Below, piece after piece: positions 4,279-12,607 of a stretch of 13,171 bases of DNA; position 1 is the stretch's first letter; every line of letters begins with the position of its first letter. Location of the stretch: NCBI GenBank assembly GCA_900550795.1, contig URTN01000004.1, positions 1-13,171 on the forward strand. The letters are read 5' to 3'. Position numbers and translations under genes: made by a program. This stretch comes from an uncultured Mollicutes bacterium. Its GTDB lineage: Bacteria; Bacillota_I; Bacilli_A; RFN20; CAG-826. The notes beneath the pieces were generated by a model. That model did no database searches. It saw only the letters and a program-made list of their open reading frames with translations, and was not told the DNA's origin.

Positions 4279-5601
4279 TTATTTTCCGCCGATAGAAAGA
4301 GATTTTATATAAGCATCGCCAACAGAAACTGCAGAATCATCAATTTCAGTTCTATTAGAGAATCCCTTTAAATCCTTAAACATTTTGAAGAGGTTCCCTG
4401 AAATGGTAATCAAATTCAATGGTTCGGCAATTTTCCCATCACGGATCATATATCCTTCGGCTTGGCAAGAGAAGTTACCAGAATTTGCATTCATTCCAGT
4501 TCCTAAACCAGCAATTTCGGTGATATAGACACCTTCTTTAATTGGGGAAATAAGTTCATCAAAGCTTGCTTTTCCTCCTTTAACGAAGATATTGGAGAAA
4601 GTGGTACCGAATTTGCCAGATCCCCAAGCACCATTGCCAGTAGATTCGACTCCATCCTTAGCGGCAGTTTCCCTATTATATAAATAGGTTTTCAAAACAC
4701 CATTTTTAATAATGAAATGATTTTGAGTCGCAACCCCTTCATCATCAAAGAAGGAATAGAATAGATTCTTGGCAAGTGGCTTTTCTTCAATGGTTAGTTT
4801 AGATGAAGCAACCTTTTGATTTAATTTGCCTTCCAAAACAGAAGAATGACGTTGGACATTATCCGCTATAGTAGATGATAGATAATAGCCAATTAAAGGA
4901 GATACGACTGCTTTATCCAAGACTGTTGGATATTTATTAGAGGCACAAGGGGCGCCACCGAATTTAGAAACAGCCCTAGAAACGATGGACTTAGCAAATT
5001 TATCAACATTGAATTTAGATAAATCATTATCAATGAAGACATCATAGAAAGTCTTGGTCTCTCCTTTATCTTTAGCTATCGCACCAGCAAATATAACGAA
5101 ATTATTGTCTTTTTGTTTTAATTTCAATCCAAAGGAATTATAAAATTCAGAATAACCTTCGCCTTCAACATATGTAACATCATCGGCATCAGTGATTCTA
5201 GAATCGGCAGCATAAATTGCATTTTCTAATTCCTTTATTAAGGCAATTTTCTTTTCAACAGGAATTAAAGACAATTCCTTATTATAGACGTTCCTCTTCT
5301 TATATTTAGGAGAGCCAGGGAACAAACCAATTTCACATGGCTTTTCTGAATACGACGCAGTCAAGATGATTTGGTCGACTAGGAAAGAGAAAGAAGAAGA
5401 ATCGATCTTTTGACTTACCCCAAATCCCAATTTGCCTTTATATAAGCCACAGGCGATTAAACTTTGGGAATTAGCAACTTTATAAGAATCTATTTCATGA
5501 TGGAACAACTTGATTGTAAGGCTGCTGGATTTAGATAATTTAATTTGGGATTGCTCGATGCCTTTTTCTTTGGCAAGGGCAAAAAACTTTGCAAAATTCA
5601 T
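4279..5601 (-). CDS. pmbA: Metalloprotease-like subunit TldE/PmbA
   Basis: The 440-residue length and overall pattern match TldE/PmbA, the partner of TldD in a cytoplasmic heterodimeric protease known to degrade unfolded peptides and, in some bacteria, to trim the leader of modified peptides such as microcin B17. The family-typical C-terminal stretch is visible near residues 370-395 (GNFSCQAEGY, then IRDGKIAEPL), parallel to FSASEAYIIRDGKICEP in the TldD next door. No HEXXXH motif is present, as expected for this subunit, which depends on TldD for the metal site. The ATG (5599-5601) overlaps the tldD stop as ATGA, and GAGGAGG sits about eight bases upstream, so the two are translationally coupled. 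No modified-peptide precursor or other biosynthetic enzyme is nearby, so a general proteolytic role is more likely here. Confidence 0.93.
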   Translation of the reverse strand: MNFAKFFALAKEKGIEQSQIKLSKSSSLTIKLFHHEIDSYKVANSQSLIACGLYKGKLGFGVSQKIDSSSFSFLVDQIILTASYSEKPCEIGLFPGSPKYKKRNVYNKELSLIPVEKKIALIKELENAIYAADSRITDADDVTYVEGEGYSEFYNSFGLKLKQKDNNFVIFAGAIAKDKGETKTFYDVFIDNDLSKFNVDKFAKSIVSRAVSKFGGAPCASNKYPTVLDKAVVSPLIGYYLSSTIADNVQRHSSVLEGKLNQKVASSKLTIEEKPLAKNLFYSFFDDEGVATQNHFIIKNGVLKTYLYNRETAAKDGVESTGNGAWGSGKFGTTFSNIFVKGGKASFDELISPIKEGVYITEIAGLGTGMNANSGNFSCQAEGYMIRDGKIAEPLNLITISGNLFKMFKDLKGFSNRTEIDDSAVSVGDAYIKSLSIGGK

Positions 5602-7007
5602 TCTAATTTTCCTCCTCTTCCGCCAACGGTAATTTCTTTTATCCTAATCGTTGGTTGGCCAACATTAACAGGAACTAATCCAGATAAAGATCCACACATA
5701 CCTTGGCCTAAATCAAGATCGTTGCCAACTCTATCAATGTTCATCAATACTTCTTTGCCACTTCCGATAAGGGTGCATCCTTTAACAGGTTCACAAATCT
5801 TTCCATCCCTAATAATATAGGCTTCGCTAGCAGAGAAGTTAAATTCACCAGTAGAAGGTTCAACAGACCCGCCACCGAAATTAACAACATAAATACCTAA
5901 CTTGGTATCTTTTATGATGTCTTCTGGTTTATCCTTTCCTTTAGCAATATAGGTATTAGACATTCTTGAAGTTGGGGCATATCTATAGCTTTCTCTTCTA
6001 GAACATCCATTAGCTTCCATATTTAGTTTTCTTCCGTTTGCCTTATCAACAAGGAATCCAACGCATATACCGTCTTTGATAAGTTGGTTATTCATCGTAA
6101 CATGACCTTCAGAATCAATATTATTTGAACCCCATTCGTTTTTTATTGTTCCATCATCAAAAGCGGATACGATAGGAGAGGCAATTTGTTCTCCAATAGA
6201 ATGAGAGAATACGGATAATCCTTTAGCAGTTGAAGTCGCTTCTAATGAGTGGCCGCAGGCTTCATGGAATATAACTCCACCCCATCCATTACCAATGACA
6301 ACGGGGAATCTTCCTGATGGGCATTCTTTAGCAGTAAGCATCATGACGGCTTTTTCACCAACTTTCTTAGCTTCCCCTTTATAATCCAAGACGGAAGTAA
6401 AATAATCCCATCCAGCATATTTACCAGGTCCAGTGAAATAGCTTTCGATTCCATTTTCTTCAGTAGAAGCCATGGCAATCATGGTAAGTCTGCCTCTTTC
6501 TTCACTATTCTTATAATGCTTACCAACTTCACCTTCGGCATTAAAGATTTCAATTTTCTTCTTGTTGTTAATGAAATTATCAATTATGCGGACTATCTTT
6601 GGGGATACTTCCTTAGTTATTTGATAACATTCCTTAAGATATTTAATCTTTTCTTCAGGTTTAACTTCATCAAGGTGGTTCTTGATTTTATTAATGACCT
6701 TTACTTTTTGGTTTTCAATTTCCTTGACCGTAATAACTCTTTCCCCTTCAAATCTAGAAGAAAGTTTATTGGCTAGTTCCATTAGGCTTTTCTTAGTTAA
6801 ATCGGAAGTATATCCATAAACGGATTCAGTTCCTTTTAGGATTCTAATTCCTGCCCCATAGGTAAGAGAGGAACCAACTCTATCAACAGTTCCATTTTCA
6901 AGAGAAATAATAGAAGATTCATTTTCTTCTAAATAGATTTCTGCATAATCTCCACCAGTTAGGAGGGCTTCATTTAATACTCCGATAGCAAGTTGTTTTG
7001 ATATCAT
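5598..7007 (-). CDS. tldD: Metalloprotease TldD
   Basis: A 469-residue protein of normal TldD length. Residues 244-253 (GVIFHEACGH) contain the HEXXXH zinc motif: His248 and His253 bind the metal and Glu249 is the catalytic base. Cys438 in GQGMCGSLSG is the likely third ligand, as in known TldD structures. SASEAYIIRDGKICEP near residue 400 is the shared TldD/TldE core. It forms the catalytic half of the heterodimer with the PmbA/TldE protein encoded directly downstream with a 4-base overlap. The ATG at 7005-7007 has AAAGGAG five bases upstream. A promoter lies just beyond, and the pair ends at the terminator at 4222-4266, so it is a simple two-gene operon. It diverges from the gene at 7074. 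Confidence 0.95.
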   Translation of the reverse strand: MISKQLAIGVLNEALLTGGDYAEIYLEENESSIISLENGTVDRVGSSLTYGAGIRILKGTESVYGYTSDLTKKSLMELANKLSSRFEGERVITVKEIENQKVKVINKIKNHLDEVKPEEKIKYLKECYQITKEVSPKIVRIIDNFINNKKKIEIFNAEGEVGKHYKNSEERGRLTMIAMASTEENGIESYFTGPGKYAGWDYFTSVLDYKGEAKKVGEKAVMMLTAKECPSGRFPVVIGNGWGGVIFHEACGHSLEATSTAKGLSVFSHSIGEQIASPIVSAFDDGTIKNEWGSNNIDSEGHVTMNNQLIKDGICVGFLVDKANGRKLNMEANGCSRRESYRYAPTSRMSNTYIAKGKDKPEDIIKDTKLGIYVVNFGGGSVEPSTGEFNFSASEAYIIRDGKICEPVKGCTLIGSGKEVLMNIDRVGNDLDLGQGMCGSLSGLVPVNVGQPTIRIKEITVGGRGGKLE

Positions 7008-7033
7008 AGCAGCTCCTTTGCATGTTTTTAGCG

Positions 7034-7063
7034 TTTATAGTGTACTTTTAAAAAAAATAACTA
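7034..7063 (-). promoter_or_regulatory. Promoter of the tldD-pmbA operon
   Basis: On the minus strand TATAAA (7034-7039) is an acceptable -10, with a weak -35 TAGTTA (7058-7063) 18 bases away across an A/T tract. The predicted start leaves a short leader of about 20 bases holding AAAGGAG. Confidence 0.45.
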
Positions 7064-7073
7064 CAATAATTAT

Positions 7074-7625
7074 GTGAATTTAAAACAGCTAAAAGAAATC
7101 GAAAACGCCAATTTCAACAAAATCAGGACTACTTTAACTAAAGAAGATAGGCTTCTTTTGAGTTGTAAAAATAATTTTATAAACAAGAAAATAGATTTCC
7201 TTAAATCATATTATTACAAAAGAAATAAGCTCATAGACCAAGGCGAAATTAACTACGTCTATTGTTTCAAGGAATATGAATATGAAGAAGACTGCCCAAT
7301 AAGCAAAGTAATAGGAATATTTTCCTTATCAAGTCAAATCGAGGAAATTGATTTAATAAACGCGAAGAAGAAATTAGATGAAATAGACATTAAGGAAAAT
7401 AGGAAATTATTTAATTTACTCCATAATAAATATGCCGATTTCCTTTATCTAAATATCGAAGAAGAAACTGGATTAAAAGATGGATATATTTCAATGTTAA
7501 CTAGATATAAATCGATTATCCCTGACTTTGCTTTAGGTTTAAATCCAGTTATTTCTAGCAAAGGGATAAGCAAAGAGATGATTTTATTGCCCCCTAAATT
7601 TAGAGTTAAAAACATTGATAAATGA
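7074..7625 (+). CDS. Uncharacterised 183-residue cytoplasmic protein
   Basis: I do not recognise this family. The protein is charged (many Lys, Glu, Asp, Asn), without signal peptide or membrane helix, probably mostly helical in the first 130 residues. There is a Tyr/Glu-rich patch (YCFKEYEYEED, about 62-72) and a more hydrophobic C-terminus (PDFALGLNPVISSKG). The only start in frame with the full coding stretch is a GTG at 7074-7076; the overlapping ATG at 7072 meets a stop at once, and no ribosome binding site is visible, so it may be poorly translated or leaderless. It is divergent from tldD, shares a 66-base gap with it, and ends in its own terminator. Codon use matches the host, so it looks resident. 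Two Cys (residues 31 and 64) are too few for a metal site. Confidence 0.75.
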   Translation: MNLKQLKEIENANFNKIRTTLTKEDRLLLSCKNNFINKKIDFLKSYYYKRNKLIDQGEINYVYCFKEYEYEEDCPISKVIGIFSLSSQIEEIDLINAKKKLDEIDIKENRKLFNLLHNKYADFLYLNIEEETGLKDGYISMLTRYKSIIPDFALGLNPVISSKGISKEMILLPPKFRVKNIDK

Positions 7626-7650
7626 GCCAATTTATCAATTTTCCTTTTTC
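7615..7650 (+). terminator. Terminator overlapping the stop codon of the gene at 7074
   Basis: TTGATAAA (7615-7622) and TTTATCAA (7631-7638) form a perfect 8-bp stem whose loop holds the TGA stop codon. A T-rich tail (TTTTCCTTTTTC) follows. It isolates this gene from rpmE. Confidence 0.75.
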
Positions 7651-7666
7651 TATTAGAAAAATAAGG

Positions 7667-7695
7667 TTGAACATGCAAACTTTTTTGTGTATCTT
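7667..7695 (+). promoter_or_regulatory. Promoter of rpmE
   Basis: TTGAAC (7667-7672) and TATCTT (7690-7695) are separated by exactly 17 bases. The predicted start near 7701 falls at the base of the leader hairpin. Confidence 0.6.
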
Positions 7696-7699
7696 TATT

Positions 7700-7740
7700 G
7701 CCGAACTCTCTGTGTGAGAAGCCTCATACGGCGAAAGGAG
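7700..7740 (+). promoter_or_regulatory. Leader hairpin before rpmE, likely L31 autoregulatory leader
   Basis: GCCG (7700-7703) pairs with CGGC (7729-7732), and TGTGAG (7713-7718) with CTCATA (7723-7728, one wobble) around the loop AAGC; a 9-base bulge lies on the left. It ends just before the AAAGGAG site. Several bacterial groups, including Firmicutes, carry an L31 leader by which free L31 represses its own translation. Size and position fit, but I judge from structure and location only. Confidence 0.45.
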
Positions 7741-7748
7741 TAATGGAC

Positions 7749-7964
7749 ATGAAAAAAGGAATCCACCCGGAATACCACAAGTGCAAAGTAACCTGCACTA
7801 CCTGCGGTTCGACATTCGAAACTGGTTCTACTCTTGATGAAATCAAGGTTGATACCTGCTCAAATTGCCACCCATTTTATACCGGAAAACAACGTTTCGT
7901 TGCTAACGATGGTAGAATCGATCGTTTCAACAAGAAACTTGCCAAGTCTAGCAAAAACAAATAA
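7749..7964 (+). CDS. rpmE: Ribosomal protein L31, zinc-binding type
   Basis: The 71-residue sequence begins [11 protein letters not shown] and contains [16 protein letters not shown] and GRIDRFNKK, diagnostic of bL31. L31 sits on the large subunit and bridges to the small subunit head. Cys16, Cys19, Cys37 and Cys40 form the zinc site, so this is the zinc-dependent (C+) form; the first pair is spaced CxxC where many homologues have CxC. The ATG at 7749 is preferred: it is eight bases after AAAGGAG and gives the conserved N-terminus, while the in-frame ATG at 7743 is only two bases from it. The gene has its own promoter, leader and terminator, so it is expressed alone. The stretch is less AT-rich than its neighbours, as usual for ribosomal protein genes. 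Confidence 0.97.
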
Positions 7965-7983
7965 GCCAATTTTATTGTAAAAA

Positions 7984-7992
7984 TGGTAAAAT
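7984..7992 (+). promoter_or_regulatory. Extended -10 promoter for metG
   Basis: TGGTAAAAT is a good extended -10 element. The predicted start, about 7999, lies within the rpmE terminator stem, so metG transcripts would carry only its right arm and avoid the terminator. Confidence 0.4.
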
Positions 7993-7993
7993 A

Positions 7994-8022
7994 GCCGCGA
8001 GATAAACGCGGCTTTATTTTTC
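7994..8022 (+). terminator. Terminator of rpmE
   Basis: GCCGCG (7994-7999), a 7-base loop and CGCGGC (8007-8012) form a perfect GC stem, followed by TTTATTTTT. Confidence 0.9.
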
Positions 8023-8040
8023 CCTAGGGAGGAAACAATC

Positions 8041-8607
8041 ATGAACAAGAAAAAATTCTATATTACTACCCCTATTTATTATCCAAGCGGATCACCGCAT
8101 CTAGGACATACATACTGCACGACTTTATGTGATGTCATTGCTAGAGGAAAAAGACTAAGGGGATATGAAACATATTTTCTTACAGGCACTGATGAACATG
8201 GTGAAAAAATAGAAAAGAACGCCATAGCAAAAGGAGTCACGCCACAGCAATTTGTTGATGAAATTGTTGTTAGATTCAAAAACCTTTGGAAAGCAATGTG
8301 CATCTCTAATGATGATTTCATTAGAACTACAGATGCTAGACATGTCGAAACTGTCAAAAAGATTTTTTCTCGTTTACTAAAGCAAGATGATATCTACCTT
8401 TCTTCCTATACTGGTTGGTATTGCGTCCATGAAGAAACATATTGGACCGAAACCCAGGTTGGAGAAGAACATCTTTGTCCAGAATGCCATAGACCAGTAG
8501 AAAGAAAAGATGAACCAGCTTATTTCTATAGCACGTCGATTCATTGCTTAAGTTCTATGATGCAAATCCTAAATTCATCACCCCTGAATCCAGGAAGAAC
8601 GAAATGA
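8041..8607 (+). CDS. metG: Methionyl-tRNA synthetase, N-terminal part (frame broken)
   Basis: MetRS charges tRNA-Met with methionine using ATP. This frame gives the N-terminal catalytic half: ITTPIYYPSGSPHLGHTY with the HIGH-type signature HLGH at residues 20-23, GTDEHGEKI for methionine and ATP binding, and the connective-peptide zinc knuckle about 125-155. In the knuckle the first CxxC pair is degenerate (YCVHEE) while CPEC is kept. Homology runs through EPAYFYSTS (about residue 166), after which the frame continues into 20 unrelated residues and a TGA at 8605-8607. The rest of the enzyme continues in another frame from 8538. AGGGAGG precedes the ATG by 8 bases. Comparison with the usual YF.R.SKY.D.LLKF stretch suggests that about 10 bases are missing near 8537, either truly or as an assembly error. 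MetRS is essential, so an intact gene must exist if this copy is dead. Confidence 0.9.
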   Translation: MNKKKFYITTPIYYPSGSPHLGHTYCTTLCDVIARGKRLRGYETYFLTGTDEHGEKIEKNAIAKGVTPQQFVDEIVVRFKNLWKAMCISNDDFIRTTDARHVETVKKIFSRLLKQDDIYLSSYTGWYCVHEETYWTETQVGEEHLCPECHRPVERKDEPAYFYSTSIHCLSSMMQILNSSPLNPGRTK

Positions 8608-9641
8608 TTAATACCTTCATTAAGCCTGGTCTTCAAGATTTATGTGTATCTAGAACTTCTTTTACCTGGGGAGTACCAGTAGAAGAAGATAAAAAACATG
8701 TTGTTTATGTTTGGCTTGATGCCCTTGTAAATTACATCTCCGCGTTAGGATATCTTCAAGATGATAATTCTAAATTCAAGGAATTCTGGGAAGATGGTGA
8801 TTGTGAGATAGTACATGTAATCGGAGCTGATATAACTAGATTCCATGCAATTTATTGGCCAATGTTCCTTGAATCTCTTGGACTAAGAGAACCAAATAGA
8901 TTGTTCGTCCATGGTTTATTAATGATGAAAGATGGAAAGATGTCCAAATCTAGAGGAAATGCCATTTCAGTCTACCCACTTATTGATAGATATGGAGTTG
9001 ATGCCCTTAGATATTATCTAGTCGAAGAAATACCTTTTGGACAAGATGGCGTTTTCACTCCTGAACAATTTGTCATGAGAATCAACCAAGACTTAGCCAA
9101 TAACCTAGGCAATCTTTTAAATAGAACGGTCTCCATGATTGATAAATATTTTAATGGAATAATCCCTGCTTATGAAAAAGGAGTTGGACCATTTGATACT
9201 GATTTAGAACAAATGGAAGAAAACACCATCTCTAAATATGAATTACTTGTTGATGATCTAAAAGTTACCGAAGCTTATGCAGAGGTTATGAACCTAGTTA
9301 GCAGGGCTAATAAATATATCGAAGAAAATGCTCCTTGGGCTTTAGCAAAAGATGAAAGTAAGACTAGAGAACTATCTTCAGTAATGTCACATTTGGCACA
9401 TGTCTTATTTACTGCAGGCATGTTGTTAAAGCCAATCCTAGTTACTAAATCAGATAAGATTTTTGACCAGCTTGGACTAAAAGAAGAGGGACGTGTATAC
9501 GAAAACATACATAACGCACATCTTCTAGACAATATCAAAGTCAATAAAGGTGAGCAATTATTCCCTCGTCTAGATGCTAAAAAAGAAATAGAAGCCATTG
9601 TCGAGATGATGAATGGCCCAAAGGAAAAAGCCGCTATATAA
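8544..9641 (+). CDS. metG: Methionyl-tRNA synthetase, C-terminal part (frame broken)
   Basis: This frame continues MetRS without other damage: LLKFYDANP, PESRKNEMINTFIKPGL, VVYVWLDALVNYISALGY, the KMSKS loop at 8937-8951 (DGKMSKSRGN), then the helical anticodon-binding domain (NLGNLLNRT, NKYIEENAPWALAK). The sequence is well conserved, so the break is recent or artificial. It ends at KEKAAI without the Trbp111-like C-terminal tRNA-binding domain found in Bacillus MetRS; many bacterial MetRS lack it. If the break is real, translation could restart at ATG 8604, which overlaps the upstream stop (ATGA) and has AGGAAG eight bases before it, yielding a split enzyme. The 8544 start is a TTG and is nominal; homology begins at 8538. 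Confidence 0.9.
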   Translation: MLKFYDANPKFITPESRKNEMINTFIKPGLQDLCVSRTSFTWGVPVEEDKKHVVYVWLDALVNYISALGYLQDDNSKFKEFWEDGDCEIVHVIGADITRFHAIYWPMFLESLGLREPNRLFVHGLLMMKDGKMSKSRGNAISVYPLIDRYGVDALRYYLVEEIPFGQDGVFTPEQFVMRINQDLANNLGNLLNRTVSMIDKYFNGIIPAYEKGVGPFDTDLEQMEENTISKYELLVDDLKVTEAYAEVMNLVSRANKYIEENAPWALAKDESKTRELSSVMSHLAHVLFTAGMLLKPILVTKSDKIFDQLGLKEEGRVYENIHNAHLLDNIKVNKGEQLFPRLDAKKEIEAIVEMMNGPKEKAAI

Positions 9642-9642
9642 A

Positions 9643-10998
9643 ATGAATAAATCCATTCCCCAAATTCTAAAAGGAACTTGTGTCGATTTGTCTTTTGAAG
9701 GCAAAGGCGTTTTCAAATCCAACAAGGATGTCGTTTTTGTTGATGGGATGTTTCCTGGCGAAGAAGGGGAAATAGAAATAACTTGCAGACGTAATGGGGC
9801 TTTATTTGGAAAGATAAAGAAACTAACAAAGGTTTCTAAAGATAGAATCGAACCTAAATGCAAAGTTTGTTCTGCCTGCGGAGGGTGTTGTTTTCAGCAA
9901 CTTTCCTATAATGCCCAGTTAGAATATAAAACCAAGAAAGTTAAGGAGCAATTCACCAAGATTGCCAAAATGGATGTTAAGGTAAATCCTTGCATCGGGA
10001 TGGATGATCCTTATTTCTACAGGAACAAAATCCAAATGCCTTTTGGAAAAGATAATAAAGGCAACCCCTACTGCGGCTTTTATAAATCCAATACCCATGT
10101 AATCGTTCCTATTGATACTTGCTATATAGAAGATATACGCGCCAAACACATTTTGGAAGCGATTAAAAAGCTATTGAAGTCATTTAAAATCGAACCATAC
10201 ATTGAAGATGAAAGATGGGGAATATTAAGACACGTCCTCATTAAAACTTCATTTTATAAGAAACAAATAATGGTTGTTTTAGTCACTGCAGTCGATGTTT
10301 TTCCTAGCAGGAATAATTTTGTTAAGGCTTTGATAAAAGAATGTCCTGAAATTACTACAATCATCCAAAACATAAACACAAGGGATACAAATGTCATCCT
10401 AGGTGAAAAACAAAGAATCCTATATGGAAAAGGATATATAGAAGATACCTTATGTGGGGTTAATTTCCAAATATCCGCGAAATCTTTCTACCAAACTAAT
10501 CCTATAATGACTGAAAAGCTCTATAACTATGCGATTGATAAAGCTGAATTGACTAAAGATGATGTTGCTTTTGATGCTTATTCAGGAATCGGGACAATTG
10601 GATTAATTGCTAGTAAGAAAGCAAGGGAAATAATCTCAGTCGAATTAGTAAAAGAAGCCGTTATAGACGGGATAAAAAACGCGAAAAGAAATAACATCAC
10701 TAACTTTAAGATGTATAACGATGATGCTTCTTCTTTTATGGTTAGGATGGCAGCAAATAAACAAGGGGTTGATGTTTTATTCATGGATCCCCCAAGAAAA
10801 GGTTCTGATAAAAGATTCCTTGATGCCTTATTAAAATTAAAGCCAAAAAGAGTTGTCTATGTTTCTTGCGATCCTACTACTTTAGCTAGGGATGTAGCAT
10901 ATATATCTAAATCTTATGAAATTAAAGACATACAGCCGTTTGATATGTTCCCACATACTTTTCATGTTGAGACTGTAGCATGTCTACGACTAAAATAG
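9643..10998 (+). CDS. rlmD: 23S rRNA (uracil-C5)-methyltransferase, RlmD/RlmCD type
   Basis: A 451-residue RumA/TrmA-family enzyme that transfers a methyl group from SAM to C5 of a uracil in 23S rRNA. Residues 1-65 are a TRAM RNA-binding domain. Cys73, Cys79, Cys82 and Cys160 match the four ligands of the [4Fe-4S] cluster. Residues 280-287 (KSFYQTNP) and DAYSGIGTIG (311-320) bind SAM, MDPPRKG (381-387) is the family motif, Cys409 in VSCDPTTLARD is the nucleophile, and Glu443 in FHVETVACL is the likely base. Gram-positive members often modify two sites (RlmCD); the sequence alone does not decide. The ATG at 9643 is one base after the metG stop, with AAAGGA inside metG as ribosome binding site, so the two genes are coupled. 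An in-frame ATG at 9613 is also open but lies inside metG and adds ten non-conserved residues. Confidence 0.93.
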   Translation: MNKSIPQILKGTCVDLSFEGKGVFKSNKDVVFVDGMFPGEEGEIEITCRRNGALFGKIKKLTKVSKDRIEPKCKVCSACGGCCFQQLSYNAQLEYKTKKVKEQFTKIAKMDVKVNPCIGMDDPYFYRNKIQMPFGKDNKGNPYCGFYKSNTHVIVPIDTCYIEDIRAKHILEAIKKLLKSFKIEPYIEDERWGILRHVLIKTSFYKKQIMVVLVTAVDVFPSRNNFVKALIKECPEITTIIQNINTRDTNVILGEKQRILYGKGYIEDTLCGVNFQISAKSFYQTNPIMTEKLYNYAIDKAELTKDDVAFDAYSGIGTIGLIASKKAREIISVELVKEAVIDGIKNAKRNNITNFKMYNDDASSFMVRMAANKQGVDVLFMDPPRKGSDKRFLDALLKLKPKRVVYVSCDPTTLARDVAYISKSYEIKDIQPFDMFPHTFHVETVACLRLK

Positions 10999-11040
10999 CG
11001 ATAAACCTTATCATTTATTTAGAAAATAAATATCAAAAAG

Positions 11041-11075
11041 AATAGGTGATGGCAGTATGCTATTTTCTTTTTTCA
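11041..11075 (+). terminator. Weak candidate terminator after rlmD
   Basis: AATAG (11041-11045) can pair with CTATT (11060-11064) around an inner GCA-GTA-TGC hairpin, followed by TTCTTTTTTC. The stem is weak. A perfect but AU-only 8-bp hairpin just upstream (11013-11031) has no T-run. No stronger terminator is seen. Confidence 0.35.
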
Positions 11076-11142
11076 ATCAAACATGAGAAAGCAGACTAAA
11101 ACTTATTTTGAAATACTGCCTATAATAGTTGTTTACTGCCTA
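11051..11142. repeat. TACTGCCTA direct repeats with an inverted copy
   Basis: TACTGCCTA occurs at 11114-11122 and 11134-11142, 20 bases apart, on both sides of a TATAAT (11121-11126), and GGCAGTA, the inverse, is at 11051-11057. The spacing by about two helical turns around a -10 box suggests operator half-sites for the decayed gene downstream, but no -35 is visible. Confidence 0.35.
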
Positions 11143-11179
11143 AAATTTAATATTTTTAAGCAGAAAAGAGAAAACATTA

Positions 11180-11287
11180 ATGAGAAAATTCGATTGTTCA
11201 TTTTTAGAAAACCAAGTACCTGCTAGATCGCTAAATTTGACCGCTATTATTTATGATATCAAAGGCAAAAAAAGCGTCTATATTTAA
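11180..11287 (+). pseudogene. Remnant of a Fic-family protein N-terminus
   Basis: ATG at 11180 opens 35 codons ending in TAA. MRKFDCSFLENQVPA and NLTAIIYDIKGKKSVYI resemble the start of Fic-domain AMP-transferase-like proteins, which commonly begin M(R/K).FDYS and reach an I.(E/D).KGK(Q/K)..(Y/F)(L/I) element about 30 residues in. The catalytic HPFxxGNG region is absent. After the stop, another frame at about 11308-11370 reads ILLDIVTSARDYW, faintly like the ILD.LVEIA segment that follows in such proteins, so the gene appears eroded by stops and frameshifts. The identification rests on memory of the family and a short stretch. Codon use is host-like. Confidence 0.45.
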
Positions 11288-11387
11288 AAGATAATAAGAA
11301 ATAGCATATTGTTAGATATTGTTACATCAGCCAGAGATTATTGGATAACATTTGTTGCAACGATTCTGTCAAATAACACAAGTAACA

Positions 11388-11393
11388 TATAAT
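11388..11393 (+). promoter_or_regulatory. Candidate -10 box for the XRE gene
   Basis: A perfect TATAAT with only a poor -35 (TCTGTC, 17 bases upstream). It would give a leader of about 130 bases holding two inverted repeats: CGCTC with GAGCG (near 11449-11470) and AACTTTG with CAAAGTT (near 11482-11510), the second just before the ribosome binding site. Confidence 0.4.
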
Positions 11394-11527
11394 CAAATTT
11401 CCTAAAATTTCTATTAATTCAATAAATTAAACCCATATAATTAACCACGCTCATAAAGGCTACCGAGCGAGTCATATTATGAAACTTTGATTCATTAACA
11501 AAGCAAAGTTAAACAGGAGGGTAGACT

Positions 11528-11791
11528 ATGAGCACACTTATTGAGTCGCGTTTGGTTGGACAATCAATCAAACACCTAAGGCTAAGTAGGAACTGGACTC
11601 AGGACCGCTTAGCAGCCACCGTTGGGTATAGCGTAAGAAACTTACGCCGTATCGAAAACGATGGCACCACAAGTATTGACGTCGTCAATACATTCGCGGA
11701 TATCTTTGAGGTATCTGCACTAGACATCCTCAGTGGGGATGTTTTTTATTTCCAAGCAAAAATGGGCTTGGCTCACTTACGTGCTTTTTGA
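11528..11791 (+). CDS. Small XRE-family (Cro/CI-like) DNA-binding protein
   Basis: An 87-residue protein that is almost only a helix-turn-helix domain: IKHLRLSRNWTQDRLAATVGYSVRNLRRIEN (about 15-45), then a helix pair ending FEVSALDIL near residue 68. Such proteins bind operators as repressors in prophages, mobile elements and toxin-antitoxin loci. AGGAGGG lies seven bases before the ATG. The final 18 residues are not conserved-looking, and an intrinsic terminator (11724-11751) sits inside the frame, so the full-length message may often be cut. Arg is encoded mostly by CGC/CGT and the gene is less AT-rich than host genes, pointing to transfer. The coding sequence also contains perfect stems (11631-11647, 11651-11662, 11673-11691), unusual for an ordinary short gene. 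It is convergent with the structured RNA region. Confidence 0.75.
   Translation: MSTLIESRLVGQSIKHLRLSRNWTQDRLAATVGYSVRNLRRIENDGTTSIDVVNTFADIFEVSALDILSGDVFYFQAKMGLAHLRAF
11724..11751 (+). terminator. Intrinsic terminator inside the XRE reading frame
   Basis: ACATCC (11724-11729) pairs perfectly with GGATGT (11737-11742) around a 7-base loop, and TTTTTTATTT follows. It lies about 40 bases before the TGA, just after the codons for the conserved domain, so transcripts ending here would lack a stop codon. Confidence 0.6.
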
Positions 11792-11800
11792 GCTTTGCCC
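11758..11800 (-). terminator. Minus-strand terminator, convergent with the XRE gene
   Basis: On the minus strand GGGC-AAA-GCTC (11800 to 11790) pairs with GAGC-CAA-GCCC (11774 to 11764): two 4-bp stems across a symmetric 3/3 internal loop. ATTTTT follows (11763 to 11758). On the plus strand no T-run follows. It would end transcripts coming from the structured region. Confidence 0.5.
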
Positions 11801-11940
11801 ATTAATCCAATAACGAATAAAAATTCCCGCACCTGGCTTATTAATTACTATTCACCTTCAGCGGCTTCGAGATTCAAAGCGGTATTACTTATTTCCGCTA
11901 AGCCATTTAGTGGCGTATGCTGCTTTTAATTTAGCAAATT

Positions 11941-11963
11941 TCACTACACGGGTCGCTTATTTT
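11941..11963 (-). repeat. Second copy of the 23-base sequence seen next to pmbA
   Basis: These 23 bases equal 4196-4218 except for one C/T change; on the minus strand both contain AAAATAAGCGACCC and TGTAGTGA. Here the sequence sits in a possible stem (GCAAA at 11934 with TTTGC at 11961) inside the structured region, with no opposing arm like that at 4105-4115. Confidence 0.7.
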
Positions 11964-12490
11964 GCAAAAAAGCATTGGCAGCCTTCGCCATACGATACTT
12001 ACTCTAATCTGTTATTCACACACTAGCACACCAAGCTGAGTAAGAGGGAGCTACCCTAATACTTCTGGTATGGGTTATTGCTAACCGTAACCTAGGAGGG
12101 AATCTAAATTGTCCCTCAACTTTCAGGGAGCTTCAGCAGGAAATTATGCCAAATTTGACTTTGTTTCCGGCGTTCCCCTACCAGTACCCACTAAATCAGT
12201 TATAGGTAGTTGCCTACCATCAAGCCGAGCACTTCCTTTAGGAACGCAGATGCTAGTTTCCTAGGCTAACATCATCACGCGGGATGCATTTCTGCAGAGC
12301 CTCTTGTCATGCCTGTCTTAGTGGTTGTTTACATCGAAGAGCGTATCGCGCCGCCAACCAAAGCGGTTTTTTAGTCCCGAATACCATTGCTGGTCTTCTA
12401 CTAGGAATGCAGTATCCAACATCCTCTTCGTTACTTGGTTGGGCCCCAGCCATCAGCAAGATGACATTCACCGGGTTCCAATGCGCTTAT

Positions 12491-12496
12491 AGTATA
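12491..12496 (-). promoter_or_regulatory. Candidate -10 box of the structured RNA
   Basis: TATACT on the minus strand, with a predicted start near 12484-12486, exactly where the proposed 5' closing strand GCGC begins. The -35 position (CACGCA) is poor, so an activator or another promoter may be needed. Confidence 0.35.
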
Positions 12497-12607
12497 GAGT
12501 GCTACTAATAACTTGCGTGAGGATACCATTTGTCCGCATGATAACTAATGCATATATTTATTGCTTATTGCACTCTCATCATTGCAAAACTGTCGTTAGT
12601 TTGTTTT

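Follow-up and report, generated by a model that had tools for sequence, protein, structure and literature searches.

Background

ROOL is a family of large structured bacterial RNAs whose typical setting is that of phages, prophages and tRNA genes. Its structure has been solved as an octameric RNA nanocage that forms hollow cages, and a ROOL cage holding the large ribosomal subunit has been pictured in the same work (Kretsch et al. 2025, PMC12286853). On the megaplasmid of L. salivarius UCC118, an lncRNA lies beside the HTH gene LSL_1884, and the authors who noted the parallel expression of both suggested that the HTH product may affect the expression or stability of the lncRNA (2017, PMC5643018). 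This RNA was found in our comparison to be a stand-alone ROOL (130.4 bits) with the HTH gene downstream. Regulation by a small HTH protein is exemplified by lambda cI at PRM, where the operator is centred at about -42, upstream of a weak -35 region, the geometry of class II activation. In B. subtilis BrfA, a terminator is located within the coding sequence before the stop codon, and the protein is made only when trans-translation fails (PMC6881298).

In this study we describe a ROOL encoded in a stretch of 13,171 nucleotides (hereafter the window, to which all coordinates refer unless a locus is named), together with a regulator gene of the HTH_3 (Cro/C1) type that faces it. Since ROOL is already a published family with a solved cage structure, the RNA of the window is a new member of that family. 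It resembles the published ROOLs in its full-length covariance match, compensatory pairing and variable linker (PMC12286853), and differs from them in having an inferred promoter and terminator of its own, an HTH gene and a palindrome, with no tRNA array in the window. The L. salivarius HTH was rejected as the same regulator, being 22% identical to that of the window and arranged in tandem rather than convergently; the best palindrome upstream of its ROOL reaches 8 of 14 positions. The window HTH gene shares with BrfA, for which this has been shown (PMC6881298), and with E. coli ArfA an intrinsic terminator before the stop codon, but its product is a predicted DNA-binding regulator rather than a rescue factor, and its control by tmRNA would be by analogy. 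With respect to lambda cI at PRM, there is here one site in most copies and no paired promoter, and the target is a structured RNA. The HTH-linked chromosomal clade of ROOL, with its palindrome and the putative brakes on its regulator, appears to be new: among the matches listed in mainly open-access literature on ROOL, there was no mention of such a ROOL-operator-HTH module.

Identity and extent of the RNA

The minus strand from 12499 to 11960 is a full-length ROOL, matching the complete Rfam model RF03087 (model positions 1 to 574) in cmscan with 184.4 bits and an E value of 1.8e-40, against a cut-off of 99.1 bits. A previous sequence-only reading had proposed a large ornate structured RNA of the ROOL, GOLLD or OLE kind on this strand, and had suggested searching Rfam and looking for covariation among homologues; the first search identified ROOL itself, and the second, made with RNAalifold counts instead of R-scape, showed at least one double compensatory change in 81 of 121 pairs among 19 chromosomal relatives, the structure being predicted from the same alignment, which was built without structural guidance. 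Excluded from this alignment were L079 and L083 (partial), L080 and L081 (no HTH) and L042/L015. The linker between the structured parts is poorly conserved, alignment columns at about 385 to 425 differing, as judged by eye, in both length and sequence. The RNA is non-coding: no frame is open across all 19 relatives, and no stop-free stretch of 50 codons is common to them, the best being shared by 10 of 19 on the ROOL strand and by 15 of 19 on the other, so that the conserved ORF that would have contradicted the earlier proposal did not appear.

The abundance of GNRA loops from which that proposal had started was confirmed. Between 11758 and 12490, six GNRA hairpins with at least three Watson-Crick pairs were found on the minus strand and one on the plus strand; dinucleotide shuffles averaged 0.51 and none in 500 reached six, in agreement with the view that so many are unlikely by chance. 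Besides the two GCAA and two GAAA loops already described, the six include a third GCAA and a GTAA, the last (at 11783) lying outside ROOL. The higher GC content also holds, with 0.43-0.47 over the ROOL stretch versus 0.27-0.36 immediately to the left and 0.35 to the right. Single-sequence folding z scores were weak (-1.8 for the minus and -2.1 for the plus strand, 60 shuffles each); the structured RNA is proven by the covariance model and by comparison, and a folding score of the single sequence would have missed it.

A -10 box and a terminator-like site of the minus strand bracket the RNA, as had been pointed out. The former is TATACT (12496 to 12491), located 22 nt downstream of the palindrome described below and ascribed to an inferred ROOL promoter, whose -35 region is poor (best match 4 of 6); a promoter scan that also demanded a -35 did not list it. 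The 3' end, as read from the sequence and RNAalifold (minus strand, 11990 to 11967), consists of the last hairpin and the 3' strand of P1, CCAATGC, which pairs with GCATTGG near the 5' end, followed by T6; the terminator-like site at 11990-11976 with its T-run closes ROOL. The transcript would thus extend from about 12485 to about 11967. The interval 11758 to 12490 originally delimited does contain the RNA, but its part from 11758 to 11966 does not belong to it, and 11758-11791, which had been taken as gene-free, is the 3' end of the HTH gene on the plus strand. As a separate observation, another genome carries 56 bases of the ROOL 5' end as an isolated copy, about 7 kb from its full ROOL (G128:C7:166940, L155).

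A regulator gene facing ROOL

The HTH gene (11528 to 11791, plus strand) is convergent to ROOL and encodes a regulator of 87 amino acids matching Pfam HTH_3 with an E value of 3.7e-08 (33.7 bits, cut-off 23). This gene, the operator-like palindrome, the leader and the internal terminator, all missed by the sequence-only reading, are the new part of the present analysis. Of the 20 loci long enough to judge, counting the window, 18 have the same HTH gene near ROOL, and in 17 it faces the ROOL 3' end. Across 23 loci, a count that leaves out the second, half-length ROOL of G095 (L083/L095), the gene is convergent and ends within 0.9 kb of the ROOL 3' end in 16, is convergent at 2.2 kb in L094, stands upstream in tandem only in L109, would fall beyond the contig end in L087, L096 and L103, and is absent from L105 and L106.

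The linkage extends to whole genomes. Among 279 genomes of the order, 21 have ROOL and 18 have HTH (E up to 1e-10), all of the latter being included in the former; three have ROOL alone, none HTH alone and 258 neither (Fisher test 1.4e-25, for genomes that are related and hence not independent). ROOL was counted here by blastn with one query, which may miss phage-type copies; in one of the ROOL-alone genomes (G144) the contig ends inside ROOL, and in G124 the HTH gene lies on another contig, not beside its ROOL. Seven weaker HTH matches in ROOL-free genomes (E 1e-7 to 1e-6, about 30% identity), six of them within frames of 546-569 codons, are taken as different proteins. A search of 395 genomes of the class found HTH in 10, seven in this order and three outside it (43-45% identity). 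Relatives from other orders (L156-L158) have no ROOL within the 2-3 kb around them and present GGACA-N5-TGTCC sites, some terminator-like. A wider protein collection yielded 449 relatives with E up to 1e-10. A phage version of HTH was rejected, there being no relative in phage records and no close one in viral contigs when searched with exact peptide words.

A candidate operator upstream of ROOL

Upstream of ROOL lies an operator-like palindrome, GCGGACAAATGGTATCCTC (12537 to 12519, minus strand), which agrees at 12 of 14 positions with the consensus GAGGACA-N5-TGTCCTC. It is present, with at least 11 of 14 positions, in 21 of 23 loci, the exceptions being L105 and L106, the two that have no HTH. 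In 20 of the 21 the score is 12 or higher, a value never reached by shuffled sequence totalling 1.1 Mb, in which the 11 scored by L108 appeared 20 times. An exact search of 26 genomes recovered 18 sites, of which 16 precede a ROOL by at most 300 bases, with none in five ROOL-free genomes and none for a reversed control pattern. Conversely, among 28 other ROOLs (23 viral, four from other genomes and that of L. salivarius; two more were too short to score) none exceeded 9 of 14 within 300 bases upstream. The arms GGACA/TGTCC are near-invariant and the five central bases vary, as expected for a DNA site bound by protein.

A -10-like hexamer follows the palindrome at 20-22 nt in 21 of 21 loci, with five or six of six positions in 19 and four of six in two. 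Because this hexamer is the best of four offsets in an AT-rich region, where offsets 24 and 27 reach equally good averages, the spacing is suggestive only. The -10 position would place the centre of the palindrome at about -43/-44.

Two other assignments of the motif were discarded. Autoregulation of HTH was rejected because only L088 and L090, out of 17 loci, have a site upstream of HTH, and both sites are followed by T-runs, for which they are read as terminators of the preceding gene. Palindromes in viral contigs were attributed to chance, since the 80 stretches listed (L159-L238), out of 83, show neither ROOL nor HTH by blastn and tblastn. In L103 (G144:C64) two copies of the palindrome, 219 bases apart, precede one ROOL.

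Putative brakes on the regulator

The HTH mRNA leader (11448 to 11527, plus strand) comprises a 5' hairpin, CGCTC...GAGCG, with the anti-Shine-Dalgarno CTACC in its loop, and the Shine-Dalgarno region GGAGGGTAG; five loop/Shine-Dalgarno pairs (CTACC/GGTAG) can form in the window. The partners covary between leaders: AGCTACC/GGTAGCT, TGCTTACC/GGTAAGCA, AGTCCAC/GTGGACT and AGTTCGT/ACGAACT. Thirteen leaders, picked after inspection (L092, L097, L102 and L109 omitted), form on average 6.6 such pairs versus 4.4 when permuted, and none of 20000 permutations reached the observed sum; with all 17 the means are 6.6 for own and 5.0 for crossed partners, the more distant HTH genes L104, L107 and L108 being excluded throughout. 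This covariation suggests that the leader can hide its own Shine-Dalgarno site. Direct pairing between ROOL and the HTH leader was dropped as a candidate, as the 14 own pairs (mean 21.6) did no better than crossed ones (22.2).

Within the HTH coding sequence, the codons around residues 65-72 encode an intrinsic terminator (11722 to 11744, plus strand) with 47 nt between the start of its T-run and the end of the stop codon. Among the 20 HTH genes, 14 have a stop codon whose end lies 12 nt or more past the T-run start; L090 is borderline (5 nt), the stop precedes the T-run in L104, L107, L109 and L132, and L108 has no terminator. Under one common rule, a terminator lies 20-150 nt before the stop in 12 of 20 HTH genes and in 5 of 277 control ORFs of the same loci, the HTH genes having been scanned over a wider stretch. 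The amino acids around the hairpin vary (NGCF, NGDVF, NGVSF) while the hairpin persists, and sequence conservation stops with it. On a simpler reading, which is compatible with non-stop control, this terminator may just shield ROOL from antisense transcription.

Viral and chromosomal ROOLs

Of the loci retrieved by pattern scans, 11 of the 15 from genomes and 24 of the 25 from viruses contain ROOL, the remaining viral locus (L030) being a pattern match but not a ROOL; tRNA matches, one or more per locus, occur in 19 of the 24. A tree of 48 ROOLs, rooted at its midpoint, groups the 20 copies marked as HTH-linked in a clade (support 0.971) together with L080, which has no HTH. Closest to this clade are L081 and five viral copies, of which two are alike. 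For L006 and L072 the mark is based on their palindrome, since their contigs end before the HTH position becomes visible, and L009 and L023 (truncated), L027 and L029 (near duplicates) and L079 and L083 (partial) were omitted. HTH-linked members are shorter (518-563 nt) than the 21 viral copies measured (563-627 nt), and the chromosomal ROOLs have diverged to 64-86% identity.

Matches to the tmRNA family occur a few kb from some viral ROOLs, at full size in L031 (3426-3737) and as stretches of 81-83 bases, which may be tRNAs, in L022 (2471-2553) and L032 (7793-7873). An 88-base OLE RNA match (53.4 bits, cut-off 50) is found in a tRNA array near the ROOL of a 402 kb viral contig (L023, 2050-2137, minus strand), and may be a tRNA-like false match as it is so short.

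A predicted two-gene module and its alternatives

We consider it quite probable that ROOL and the facing Cro/C1-type regulator constitute a module of two genes, in which HTH is predicted to switch ROOL through the palindrome. The identity and structure of ROOL, its linkage to HTH, the conserved palindrome, the covariation of the leader and the terminator-like hairpin inside the gene are evidenced at the level of sequence, and from them we infer the binding of HTH, the sign of control, the dependence on tmRNA and the trigger. An HTH dimer would bind GAGGACA-N5-TGTCCTC, immediately 5' of the -35 region of ROOL, and thereby switch ROOL transcription, with activation likelier than repression. Synthesis of HTH would be restrained by a leader that hides the Shine-Dalgarno site and, in most copies, by the internal terminator, which would leave an mRNA with no stop codon whose product trans-translation would tag for destruction. 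Disturbed translation or ribosome rescue, as in a phage attack, would thereby alter the ROOL level, and the trigger would be a shortage of trans-translation, perhaps in such an attack. Points against the module are the 6 of 20 HTH genes with no clear terminator before the stop, the HTH of G124 that is not beside its ROOL, and the three relatives from other orders with no ROOL nearby. Regulator, site and the two brakes would tell when the cell wants ROOL made, and a candidate regulator with its control site offers a handle on ROOL function.

With regard to sign, the evidence leans towards activation, because a site predicted to be centred at about -43, next to a poor -35, has the geometry of lambda cI at PRM. 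Repression, by which HTH bound at about -43 would block RNA polymerase, with ROOL on by default and raised by the loss of HTH, is a serious if somewhat improbable alternative. The palindrome touches the -35 region and most small Cro/C1 proteins are repressors; against this, the -35 is itself poor and the site is located just upstream of it, not over the -10 or the start, a layout more typical of activation.

It is unlikely that HTH and ROOL are linked by inherited adjacency with no functional coupling. The HTH-linked ROOLs are one clade, so a single origin of the adjacency may apply, the linkage counts are not independent because the genomes are related, and HTH relatives of other orders have no neighbouring ROOL. 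Flanks and ROOLs have diverged, however, yet HTH, palindrome and convergence persist; palindrome and HTH are missing together in L105 and L106; and within the order no HTH was detected in genomes lacking ROOL (18 of 18).

Slightly more doubtful still is a decaying prophage remnant that kept a phage ROOL and a phage repressor. The viral copies next to the clade, the tRNA matches of most viral ROOL loci and the fic fragment in the acquired DNA (see below) would be in line with such an origin. The window, however, contains no tRNA and hence departs from the usual ROOL setting, HTH has no relative in phage records nor, by exact peptide words, a close one in viral contigs, and no phage structural gene was seen among 32 flank proteins of the relatives, chosen by eye, which belong to defence-type and other genes.

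The possibility that the palindrome acts as an RNA hairpin or terminator instead of an operator is very improbable: terminator-like GGACA...TGTCC palindromes with T-runs do exist near some HTH genes, but at ROOL no T-run follows, and all 21 loci share GG, CA and TCCT, with no compensatory change there, around a variable centre. Finally, a new class of ornate RNA, which the sequence-only reading had entertained and which the divergence of this copy and the lack of blastn matches to the window ROOL in phage or plasmid collections might have suggested, is practically ruled out by the match to RF03087 over its full length, 85 bits above the cut-off.

Probable acquisition and genomic setting

The module lies between housekeeping genes on its left, namely tldD/pmbA and rlmD (by Pfam) and metG (by eye), and the end of the available sequence, which continues for 672 bases past ROOL with an ORF of 96 codons that has no Pfam match. 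Up to 10974, a position just within the end of rlmD, the nearest genome compared (G001) matches the window at 98%, after which the two diverge; no ROOL was detected in G001 by blastn, and among the 31 genomes of its genus only G012 gives a ROOL match, a distant one. The closest ROOL (86%) and the closest HTH (92%) among the genomes compared are both in G230, from another genus (g49). Provided that the window comes from the G001 genus, as shared words suggest, this divergence and the foreign affinity of the closest relatives imply that the ROOL-HTH stretch was acquired horizontally, in accordance with the acquired setting proposed earlier.

The left edge of the acquired DNA falls in the zone 10975 to 11440. 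A finer placement is prevented by G006, a member of the G001 genus, in which 66 bases near rlmD are still similar to 11008-11070. Part of this stretch occurs twice in G219, so that it may be a repeat. Sequence similar to 10990-11277 of the window (10990 being the start of the query) lies next to ROOL in G219 and includes the first 34 codons of fic; the corresponding fic 5' fragment (11177 to 11278, plus strand, 34 aa) is 91% identical to the fic of that genome.

Elsewhere the flanks of the module differ almost everywhere, and several loci have defence-type genes, according to a scan of 32 different proteins chosen by eye (30 by Pfam and 10 by PADLOC, with some PADLOC matches partial). These are a DdmD-like helicase and a TnsA-like protein in L087; a NERD helicase and macro in L088; a type I restriction enzyme, IetA-like, HEPN and ADP-ribosylglycohydrolase in L089; TIR-NB-ARC and Fic in L090; tandem TIR of the Thoeris type in L094; PDC-M33A, macro and ADP-ribosylglycohydrolase in L099; macro in L100; and TIR-methyltransferase in L104. 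No defence-type gene was noticed in L092, L093, L096, L097, L098 and L101, for which three proteins were scanned. In 17 of the 18 HTH-bearing genomes (G012 omitted), the distance to a module is at most 10 kb for 6 of 13 macro genes and for 5 of 30 TIR genes, versus 0.19 and 0.45 expected when relatedness is ignored, although G039 and G051 look near-identical around ROOL and two of the six macro genes lie close to the HTH of G230, whose contig (C4) shows no ROOL. The macro genes derive from 14 rows; for the TIR genes, 34 rows were reduced by removing three second pieces and one that fell below the cut-off.

These neighbours point towards defence. A speculative and rather improbable extension is that chromosomal ROOL is the inducible arm of a response of ribosome rescue and against phages, whose RNA cage could take in ribosomal subunits or tRNAs, and that phages carry ROOL in tRNA arrays to work on the same host process. 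A role of the cage in ribosome or tRNA handling fits those arrays, the tmRNA match of L031 and the published cage picture.

Several minor features of the setting deserve mention. A weak match to the L31-Firmicutes leader (7710-7740, plus strand; 22.9 bits, under the cut-off of 33.3) coincides with the start of an rpmE-like gene, and a methionyl-tRNA synthetase-like sequence, recognized by eye, is split over two overlapping frames (8041-8607 and 8544-9641), probably because the gene or its assembly contains a frameshift. In L087, L088 and L099 the ROOL terminator is followed by a small ORF (KSKAAYTxKWLxRN...), which starts at the contig end in L096 and is kept as a short remnant in the window (11800-11966, minus strand); its L088 copy has no Pfam match. 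Relative to the HTH-ROOL pair, fic is on one side in L090 (8579-9616) and on the other in the window (11177-11278), as in a circular permutation, one possible reading of which is a circular intermediate. In both L106 (6535-9972) and the window (4279-12499), ROOL lies on the same strand as, and upstream of, a tldD/pmbA-like pair, the two ROOL copies being distant and other genes intervening in the window.
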